A stretch of 64,000 nt of DNA from Bacteroidaceae bacterium (GTDB lineage: Bacteria > Bacteroidota > Bacteroidia > Bacteroidales > Bacteroidaceae): NCBI GenBank assembly GCA_017552435.1, contig JAFZPZ010000015.1, forward strand, positions 1-64,000, in the 5' to 3' direction. The notes beneath the pieces were generated by a model that saw nothing but the letters and a program-made list of their open reading frames with translations, did not search any database and was not told the origin of the DNA. Positions 22,537 through 24,917 of this stretch are shown in pieces (position 1 is the first letter of the stretch; every line of letters starts with the position of its first letter). Made by a program: the position numbers and the translations under genes.

Positions 22537-22544
22537 TATCTTTG
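22537..22544 (+). promoter_or_regulatory. -7 box of the TIR-like/ATPase/DUF4435 operon
   Basis: TATCTTTG; transcription predicted near 22548, 12 bp before the ATG at 22560. An in-frame ATG at 22524 is upstream of this and is therefore not used. The -33 TTTG is absent, so the promoter may need an activator. Confidence 0.55.
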
Positions 22545-22559
22545 CACAAAAAGTACACA

Positions 22560-23087
22560 ATGAATACCAATAAAACATACGTTGCATACGATGCAACCGG
22601 CGTACTTGACCACGAGAACAGCAACCTGCGAACTTTCAAGCAGCTGAATGAGTGGCAGCGGATACATCCCGAACGCTTCCGTTTCGTGAACATAGATGAG
22701 ATCTATTTCTCGTCTGAACATGATGACTTGATTGACAGTACACTCAAGACTCATCTTCTTTCTATCATGGCTCAGGCCGACAACCTCCTGGTAATCATCT
22801 CTCCTTTCACAAACGTGGAGAGTCCCATCCTGAACTGGCAAATCAGCAGGGCTGTCAACCGCTTCCATCTGCCGGTCATCATTGCATATGTCAGCAAGGA
22901 GCAACTTAGCGACCACTCGGTAGAGGACAATTGGCATCGTCTGCCAAACAAGATACGCAAATATATTGGGCGCGACAGTGCCCGCATGTGCCACATCCCC
23001 CTCACGCAGGACAAACTGGAACGCGCGCTCAGTACCTTCTCGGTGGGTGCTGGTACATATCCATGGAACTCAACAACAATATTCTGA
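22560..23087 (+). CDS. TIR-like (ThsB/DUF1863-type) domain protein
   Basis: 175 residues, cytosolic. The fold pattern of the TIR-like clan is visible: first strand KTYVAYD (5-11), a long helix with KQLNEWQRIHPERF, strand FRFVNIDEI, helix LKTHLLSIMAQAD, strand NLLVIISPFT (75-84), then SPILNWQISRAVNRFHLPVIIAYVS (88-112). In ThsB-type proteins the catalytic Glu lies in the segment W-x-x-E-I after the fourth strand; here the same place reads W93-Q94-I95, so the Glu is Gln. NADase activity is thus doubtful and a sensing or scaffold role more likely. It is the first gene of an operon with an ABC/SMC-like ATPase (4-bp gap) and a DUF4435 protein. The domain assignment is by motif pattern, not by a search. 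Confidence 0.65.
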   Translation: MNTNKTYVAYDATGVLDHENSNLRTFKQLNEWQRIHPERFRFVNIDEIYFSSEHDDLIDSTLKTHLLSIMAQADNLLVIISPFTNVESPILNWQISRAVNRFHLPVIIAYVSKEQLSDHSVEDNWHRLPNKIRKYIGRDSARMCHIPLTQDKLERALSTFSVGAGTYPWNSTTIF

Positions 23088-23091
23088 AATT

Positions 23092-23901
23092 ATGAACGGA
23101 CAATACATTGAACGCATAGAGATAGAGGCTCTCTGGAACGGACGCAAGCACATTTGCTGGGACCTGCAGCCTGGCGTCAACATCCTGAGCGGCGTTAACG
23201 GTGTGGGCAAGAGCACCATCCTGAACCGTGTCATCATGCACCTGTTGGACATTGACAAGGAAGTACGCAGAAACGACGGTGTACACCTTACTATCTTCCC
23301 TCACGAAGCAAAGTCTGTCGATTTCGAGGTCATTCGCTCCTTCGACCGTCCTATGCTCTCCAGCGACCTGATGAACAAAGTTACCGAAACCCAGTTACAA
23401 ACAGAGCTTGACTTGCATATCTATCATCTACAACGCAAATGGCTCGACTATCAGGTCAACCTTTCCAACCGTATGGTGGAACTCTTTACCAGTCAAGATC
23501 CTGAGGCTGCTGCAAAAGTACAGGAGCTTGCAGGCGAGAAAGCACATTTCCAAGACATCATCGATGACCTCTTCATCGATACAGGCAAGACCATCAAACG
23601 TGACCAAAACGAGATTTATTTCGACTCCTACGGCGAGACGATTTCAGCATACAAACTTTCCAGCGGCGAGAAGCAGATGCTCATCATTCTGCTTACCGTC
23701 CTTGTACAGAACAAGCGCCCCTTTGTTCTATTCATGGATGAGCCCGAGGTCAGCTTGCATGTTGAGTGGCAGCAACGACTGATTGACCTCTTAATTGATC
23801 TCAATCCGAACGTTCAGATTATTCTCACTACCCATAGCCCCGCAGTCATAATGAACGGCTGGAGCGACCGCGTCACAGACGTGGAAGACATTGAAGTGTA
23901 A
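23092..23901 (+). CDS. AriA/OLD-type ABC ATPase
   Basis: 269 residues. Walker A GVNGVGKST (34-42), ABC signature LSSGEKQ (189-195), Walker B FVLFMDEPE (Asp216, Glu217) and the switch His248 in LTTHSP form a complete ABC/SMC-like ATPase head. Residues about 105-170 form a long helical insertion (LQTELDLHIYHLQRKWLDYQ onward). This matches the ATPases of OLD and PARIS (AriA) type, although it is shorter than the AriA proteins I know. It lies between the TIR-like gene (4 bp upstream) and the DUF4435 gene (stop and start overlap by one base, TAATG). In PARIS the ATPase assembles as a cage that holds the DUF4435 nuclease until phage proteins trigger release. By analogy it is the sensor or scaffold here. 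Confidence 0.8.
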   Translation: MNGQYIERIEIEALWNGRKHICWDLQPGVNILSGVNGVGKSTILNRVIMHLLDIDKEVRRNDGVHLTIFPHEAKSVDFEVIRSFDRPMLSSDLMNKVTETQLQTELDLHIYHLQRKWLDYQVNLSNRMVELFTSQDPEAAAKVQELAGEKAHFQDIIDDLFIDTGKTIKRDQNEIYFDSYGETISAYKLSSGEKQMLIILLTVLVQNKRPFVLFMDEPEVSLHVEWQQRLIDLLIDLNPNVQIILTTHSPAVIMNGWSDRVTDVEDIEV

Positions 23902-24917
23902 TGGCAAAGCGACTGCAGGAACACCTCAACTCCAACTACATCGAACTCGCATCACGGCTTCGACCCAAGAATGCGGTGCGAAAAGTTGTGGCCTATGTCG
24001 AGAGCTACGATGACGTCTTCTTCTGGCGTTCCGTCCTGCAGGACTTCGAAACCGACAAACTTCGCTTCGAAGTCATGTTGCCCTCGCGCCGCACACTTAG
24101 CAAGGGGAAAAAGGCTGCCCTCATGAATCGTCTAGGACCCTCTCTTGGCGACTTTATGATTGCCTGCGTAGACGCCGACTACGACTACCTCATGCAGGGT
24201 GCCACCGAGGTAAGCCGCACACTCCTGTCATCACCCTACATCATGCACACTTATGCCTATGCTATCGAGAACTACCAGTGTTACGCTCCATCCCTGCATA
24301 CAGCTTGTGTCATGAGTACCCTTAATGACCGCGACATTTTCTCTATCGAGGCATTCATCGAGCAGTTCAGCCTCATCATCTGGCCGCTCTTCGTTTGGAG
24401 CATCTGGGCACACCGATACGGACAAGCCAACATCTACAGCATCACCGACTTCGCACAGACAATCACATTCCACGACATCAATCCCTGGCACCCGGAAAAT
24501 GCTCTAGAGCACTTAAAACAAAGAGTTAACAAACAAGTAGCTTGGCTGCAACGGAAATTCCCCAAAGCAAAGGACTCCTACCTGAAACTGAGAAAGGCCC
24601 TACAGGAAGAACTCAATATTCGTCCAGCCGAGACATATCTCTATATACAGGGGCATGCCCTCATGGATGGCGTTGTGTTGCCTTTGCTAAATCCTGTCTG
24701 CAACATTCTGCGACGAGAGAGAGAGAAAGAGATTACGCAACTTGCCGTGCACAATTGTCAGAAGCAGAACGAGCTATCCGGCTATCGGCACAGCCAGTCA
24801 CCTATCGATCTAATGCTACGCAAGGGAACAGCTTTCAAGCAGAGCCCTCCCTATCAGCTTCTACGTGCCGATATCGAACGGCTTGCTGAAAGAATCAGCA
24901 AGCACCTTCCTGCTTGA
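23901..24917 (+). CDS. DUF4435 (TOPRIM-like, AriB-type) protein
   Basis: 338 residues. VVAYVESYDDVFFW (Glu34) and DFMIACVDADYDYLM (Asp91, Asp93) are the Glu and DxD metal-binding residues of the TOPRIM fold as found in DUF4435 and the OLD nuclease. The rest is helical, with a pair of Trp-rich segments at about 160-175. In PARIS the DUF4435 partner AriB is a toxic nuclease released on activation. Here the DUF4435 gene overlaps the ATPase gene by one base, so both are made in a fixed ratio. The last 23 bases overlap the convergent pfkB gene. The function in this host (phage defence or a housekeeping role) is inferred from the pair architecture only. Confidence 0.78.
   Translation: MAKRLQEHLNSNYIELASRLRPKNAVRKVVAYVESYDDVFFWRSVLQDFETDKLRFEVMLPSRRTLSKGKKAALMNRLGPSLGDFMIACVDADYDYLMQGATEVSRTLLSSPYIMHTYAYAIENYQCYAPSLHTACVMSTLNDRDIFSIEAFIEQFSLIIWPLFVWSIWAHRYGQANIYSITDFAQTITFHDINPWHPENALEHLKQRVNKQVAWLQRKFPKAKDSYLKLRKALQEELNIRPAETYLYIQGHALMDGVVLPLLNPVCNILRREREKEITQLAVHNCQKQNELSGYRHSQSPIDLMLRKGTAFKQSPPYQLLRADIERLAERISKHLPA

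Follow-up and report, generated by a model that had tools for sequence, protein, structure and literature searches.

A ThsB-family TIR gene linked to a near-universal AriA-AriB pair of PARIS type in Bacteroidaceae

The closest described system to the locus studied here is PARIS, which in E. coli comprises two genes, an ABC-type ATPase gene (AriA) followed by a DUF4435 Toprim gene (AriB). According to PMC12409363, AriA forms a hexamer that holds AriB, phage proteins such as Ocr free AriB, and the freed AriB dimer cuts tRNAs, an activity abolished by the E26A mutation. PMC9122126 reports PARIS in 5.2% of genomes and its occurrence in P4-like satellites. A second point of reference is Thoeris, in which the TIR protein ThsB uses a catalytic Glu and is accompanied by ThsA; this Glu is E85, and the E85Q mutant is inactive (PMC10022894). 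Finally, OLD nucleases and the Gabija protein GajA share the general logic of an ABC ATPase joined to a Toprim domain.

The window (i.e., the whole stretch of 64,000 nucleotides that was analysed) contains an AriA-AriB pair preceded by a third gene. The parts of the locus are as follows.

22537..22544, + strand: promoter-like -7 element TATCTTTG, a match to the TAnnTTTG-type consensus of Bacteroidota
22560..23087, + strand: ThsB-family TIR protein of 175 aa, probably catalytically dead (family models, fold, Q94)
22839..22841, + strand: codon of TIR Gln94, which corresponds to the catalytic Glu of ThsB (profile alignment, alignment of relatives)
23092..23901, + strand: compact AriA-type ABC/SMC ATPase of 269 aa (PADLOC model, motif residues identical in relatives)
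23901..24917, + strand: AriB-type DUF4435 Toprim protein of 338 aa, putative RNase effector (models, fold, active-site residues)

An earlier note, made from the sequence letters, had described a three-gene locus of a TIR-like protein, an AriA-type ATPase and a DUF4435 protein, and this is confirmed by models and fold. Gene 1 belongs to the ThsB_TIR family, is matched by the PADLOC ThsB model and has the ThsB fold, like EcThsB2 and 3hyn, while genes 2 and 3 match the PADLOC AriA and AriB models. The note's view of the first gene as an addition to a PARIS pair is also supported. E. coli PARIS has two genes, and the linked locus has the TIR in addition. The TIR-AriA-AriB operon was not found in the literature searched by titles and starts of abstracts, which covers neither preprints outside PMC nor most subscription papers, and the same search returned no paper combining DUF4435 and Bacteroides. 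In the literature searched, DUF4435 and TIR occur together only in PMC9122126 and PMC9009780.

As in PARIS, the ABC-type ATPase gene is followed by the DUF4435 Toprim gene, and models, adjacency, fold and catalytic residues all agree. The two frames overlap by 1 bp in the window, and a comparison of 108 genomes (90 from the window's genus, 16 from other genera of the family, and two from another family) placed AriA beside AriB in 106, both misses being in that other family. The gaps range from -4 to 217 bp, with a median of 30 (107 loci in 106 genomes). The ATPase motifs are intact, with AriA residues K40, G192, D216, E217 and H248 identical in 104/104 relatives, and the Toprim Glu and DxD of AriB are present, with E34, D91, D93 and D95 identical in 108/108. 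K68 of AriB (K in 94/108, R in 14/108) stands 34 residues after E34, as K60 follows E26 in E. coli AriB, a correspondence of spacing and not of alignment. The residues taken to correspond to those of E. coli PARIS are thus invariant. We infer that the module works in the manner of PARIS. The AriB fold matches 8v46/8ux9 moderately (rmsd 5.3-5.9, 9-10% identity). A profile search against the sequences of solved structures found no relative, returning two unrelated matches with E above 1; hence, AriB is tied to the solved structures by fold alone.

The main difference within the pair is the size of AriA. The PARIS AriA chain has 464 aa and forms a hexamer with three AriB, whereas AriA here has 269 aa (median of 272 aa in relatives). 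It falls short of the E. coli chain by some 200 residues, so that the hexamer scaffold may not have been kept. In comparison with OLD and GajA, to which the ATPase has a weak match (E about 0.003 for GajA), the proteins here are separate chains, the Toprim is of the DUF4435 type, and the best matches are AriA and AriB. In one genome (G208, locus L100), a second AriA-like frame with 57% identity lies at the locus edge, several genes upstream of AriA-AriB.

Our best explanation, whose chances we regard as evenly balanced, is that the locus is a PARIS-type module, resident and inherited vertically, to which a TIR regulator was added. The main alternative is a housekeeping role, in which AriAB would be a core RNase for stress or translation control, with the TIR sensing a metabolite such as NAD status. 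AriB was found in 379 of 399 family genomes (200/207 of high quality; 28/30 genera; weakest E of 2.5e-40) and in 128 of 139 genomes of the window's genus, including 18/18 of high quality; most of all these genomes are MAGs. It is single-copy in most genomes, and 7/139 genus genomes carry a second, far more distant copy (21-28% identity). The Pfam DUF4435 model, positive in the control Bacteroides ihuae, matched none of the 31 AriB-negative genomes (20 from the family set and 11 from the genus set). These include single-contig, 99%-complete genomes of another genus (g3), where 4/33 genomes lack AriB. Since some 99%-complete genomes lack the pair, it is core yet dispensable, not strictly essential.

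The history of the pair appears largely vertical, unlike that of a mobile cassette. In a tree of AriA plus AriB from 104 genomes, the window's genus lies on one side of a branch with support 99, and the rows of three other genera (g9, g13 and g15) group by genus; two genomes in which no AriA was found (G714, G615) and two with truncated AriA (G312, G263) were left out of the AriAB trees. Pairwise AriAB distances correlate with those of PurA, the single housekeeping gene used as control for vertical descent (r 0.74, 41 genomes, permutation p 0.001). The mean distance is 0.37 for AriAB vs 0.15 for PurA, i.e., the pair evolves faster. Among the window's closest relatives, the median dN/dS is 0.077 for TIR, 0.087 for AriA, 0.073 for AriB and 0.042 for PurA (24 genomes, 13 for PurA), values that are rough, with dS near saturation. 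These values indicate that the TIR is under purifying selection, as are AriA and AriB. The fetched flanks of 34/59 genus AriB loci contain trkA, in many cases with dxs, GSCFA and Mur-ligase genes coming next. In the single fetched locus of genus g22, the same neighbours lie beside the pair. The site of the window's own clade lies among sugar genes, unlike this trkA-type site.

Beyond the family, the pair was also sought across the order, from which few genomes were drawn per family and match-free genomes are mostly unlisted, so that per-family denominators are undefined. With the window AriB as query, matches were obtained in 26/295 genomes of the order. Four of these belong to the family; among the remaining 22, identity reaches 35-37% at best, and the weakest match is marginal. 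The Pfam DUF4435 model matches 58/295 order genomes, again four of the family. Six families (f22, f26, f29, f60, f88 and f109) have three matching genomes each, with single open frames of 522-574 aa. The 20 loci fetched beyond the family include 15 long frames, with four to five in three further families (f3, f24 and f105, the last twice). According to the family's AriA model, an AriA-like N-terminal part precedes DUF4435 in 10/15 long frames, and the same model detected no AriA part in the other 5/15, including both f88 loci. The former (L292, L297-L303, L308, L309) are frames of about 520-640 aa with a C-terminal DUF4435, and the latter (L290, L293-L296) are comparable long frames. The long frames look like AriAB fusions. 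Such fused proteins are one polypeptide and only distantly related in sequence (E about 1e-5 to 1e-8 with the AriA model), whereas the chains are separate here. Compact split pairs were found in f4, f59, f106 and f111, at one locus each. Together, these matches hint at, and do not prove, a core status wider than the family.

PARIS is described as patchy and often mobile, by an informal criterion, whereas the pair here is core and vertical. Scans of viral contigs based on the two alignments yielded 79 pattern matches for AriB and 17 for the TIR, and tblastn identified no relative among them. Likewise, tblastn found no AriB in phage records and no TIR in plasmid records. For AriB, plasmid records gave eight matches, six of which are weak (20-22% identity) and lie in Klebsiella and Acinetobacter. 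The one weak match inspected is an ATPase and DUF4435 pair on a 4.4-kb plasmid, which indicates that distant AriB relatives are mobile. The two strong matches come from Bacteroides finegoldii and Phocaeicola massiliensis; the records NZ_OY725943.1 (L287) and OY726067.1 (L289) are filed as plasmids and carry the core AriB. Given that the B. finegoldii record contains meaB, a dipeptidase and a mechanosensitive channel, and is typed as non-mobilizable, it is read as a chromosomal contig; in this species the two genes of the pair bear the annotations 'AAA family ATPase' and 'DUF4435'. The AriB stretch of P. massiliensis has no annotation. A mobile-element reading of the family pair was rejected, since the scans run found no relative in viral contigs or phage records.

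Judged by its sequence, the pair is PARIS by content, with a distribution unlike that described for PARIS. Defence systems are not usually core and vertically inherited, and this weighs against a resident-defence reading. Near-universal and mostly single-copy occurrence, vertical descent and low dN/dS speak for a housekeeping role; trkA-type neighbours, usually with dxs, and the lack of relatives in viral contigs and phage records in the scans run fit it as well. However, the pair is dispensable and evolves faster than PurA, and its characterised relative is anti-phage. We consider a housekeeping role possible, though somewhat doubtful. The caveat of a resident role, raised in the earlier note, thus proved important. 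The note had also held that universal presence and vertical inheritance would count against defence, which applies to the pair and not to the triple, found in 58/139 genus genomes.

The distribution of the TIR is narrower than that of the pair. TIR was detected in 14/201 family genomes, most family genomes having AriB and no detected TIR, and in 77/139 genomes of the genus (undetected in 62/139). By coordinate comparison with contig breaks checked, it lies directly upstream of AriA in 58/77 and elsewhere in 19/77. Hence, AriAB does not need the TIR. Among the 77 named TIR loci, AriA follows on the same strand at a distance of up to 512 bp in 54 and does not in 22, and one locus meets a contig end. 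Order and strand of the triple are kept in 54/54 linked named loci, and the triple itself is not universal (58/139). The outer neighbours vary among lineages. Seventeen of the 19 unlinked genus TIRs (L070-L089, L109) adjoin an M18 aminopeptidase, GH92 or patatin-like gene. Four genomes of genus g2 were found with TIR, none with AriA beside it.

The TIR tree unites the linked copies in a single clade (support 87/84) and places the stand-alone copies outside it, and one change suffices in 88% of bootstrap trees. These values suggest that the TIR probably joined the pair once, within one genus. The linked label requires three changes in the AriAB tree, so some loss or transfer occurred after capture. 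All 77 TIR-positive genus genomes have AriB vs 51/62 TIR-negative ones (Fisher p 8e-5), a difference confounded by phylogeny and completeness, so that the test is given no weight. In the unlinked genomes, TIR distances have r 0.90 with AriAB and r 0.56 with PurA, with nine genomes being too few for this comparison.

The promoter-like element follows the same division. The motif TAnnTTTG, which we take to be the -7 element of the Bacteroidota promoter consensus, is found in the 100 bp before the linked TIR in 51/55 cases (3.4 expected from mononucleotide shuffles). It also precedes unlinked TIRs, with 14/18 in the genus (0.9 expected from shuffles) and 2/4 in g2, or 16/22 altogether. In the 100 bp upstream of AriA, it is found in 0/46 cases behind a linked TIR (1.3 expected from shuffles) and in 39/58 without one (2.7 expected). 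At short TIR-AriA gaps, this absence could mirror coding sequence; at gaps of at least 60 bp, the element is found in 0/19 (2,583 bases). Judged by this consensus match, the promoter that serves all three genes seems to lie with the linked TIR. Even related species differ in the length of the TIR-AriA gap, which runs from a few bases to more than 300, and several gaps (e.g., G266, G245, G285 and G251) hold short tandem-repeat-like sequence.

These data also bear on whether the TIR is an incidental neighbour, i.e., co-transcribed with AriAB and functionally independent of it. In 19 genus genomes the TIR is apart from AriAB, and in the four g2 genomes found with it no AriA adjoins it, which agrees with such independence; vertical inheritance alone can also hold neighbours together. 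Yet order and strand are constant in the 54 linked named loci while the outer neighbours differ, and the linked AriA has no promoter-like element of its own. The presence of AriB in every TIR-positive genome, with the confounding stated above, points the same way. We therefore judge incidental neighbourhood unlikely.

According to a profile alignment, Q94 of the TIR aligns with the Glu of three solved ThsB/TIR chains. The alignment of relatives has 78 rows, 74 from the genus's 77 and four from g2, with G244, G292, G294 and the weak match L015 (genus g28, 29% identity) excluded. The residue at this position, which directly precedes a conserved Ile/Val, is Gln in 76/78; of the two exceptions, L114 has Met and L014, a distant g2 copy, has Glu. 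Two loci from other genera keep the Glu, L014 (G073; KWEVETAI) and L015 (G028; LREEIEYGI), and L015, with Glu at the catalytic place, resembles an ordinary ThsB protein. The patterns used in scanning for TIR relatives include the Gln, and the scan is hence biased to Gln-bearing relatives. The named records with TIR relatives are Bacteroidaceae, Prevotellaceae and Bacteroidales MAGs, many from ruminant gut and some from horse faeces or an unstated source.

Thoeris ThsB thus shares family and TIR fold with gene 1, whereas gene 1 carries Gln where ThsB has its catalytic Glu, has no adjoining ThsA, and is partnered with AriAB. No ThsA-like gene was found either in the operon or in the seven neighbouring genes covered, all of which belong to other families. 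The STALD domain, which we take to be associated with ThsA, was found in 0/139 genus genomes in a search whose control was silent too and which is therefore given no weight. Membership in Thoeris was rejected on the missing catalytic Glu and the missing adjoining ThsA. Given that the Glu is Gln and that E85Q is an inactive ThsB mutant, the TIR is probably not an NADase or other enzyme, although Gln at this position may still allow different chemistry. An active Thoeris-type enzyme or NADase, serving as second effector or signal maker, would fit the clear ThsB family and fold, yet it is highly improbable given the Gln in 76/78 copies, the loss of ThsB activity in E85Q (PMC10022894), and the lack of a ThsA-like gene in the operon and its seven neighbouring genes covered here. 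Of the roles suggested earlier for the added TIR (sensor, regulator or second effector), the last is accordingly unlikely.

The resident PARIS-type module with an added TIR regulator would work as follows. AriA would hold AriB inactive and free it on an infection or stress signal, and the freed AriB would cut tRNAs and stop growth, by analogy with E. coli PARIS. The TIR would consume no NAD+ and would serve as a non-enzymatic sensor or adaptor that gates the release of AriB, with a phage protein, an NAD-derived nucleotide or AriA as candidate ligands. It would be an older stand-alone gene, probably captured once, that on capture supplied its promoter and so tied the expression of AriAB to its own. 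TIR domains are used without NAD chemistry in the adaptors of animal TLRs. The compact AriA may offer a smaller sensing surface, for which the TIR might compensate; this compensation is speculative, given that most family genomes have AriB and no detected TIR. A more specific proposal, tentative and short of an even chance, is that a toxic-RNase pair was domesticated family-wide, with fusions perhaps fixed elsewhere in Bacteroidales, and that one lineage added an enzyme-dead TIR receptor subunit that gates the RNase.

If this proposal is true, surveys that treat PARIS as an acquired, gut-enriched defence partly count a resident gene pair. The family data suggest, and do not prove for the survey data set, that its PARIS signal is largely the core pair. 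Should much of the signal be a vertical core pair, gut enrichment would reflect ancestry and not recent selection. Most family members would then carry a standing toxic RNase with a trigger to be found, and the natural Glu-to-Gln TIR would offer a test case for non-enzymatic bacterial TIR receptors.
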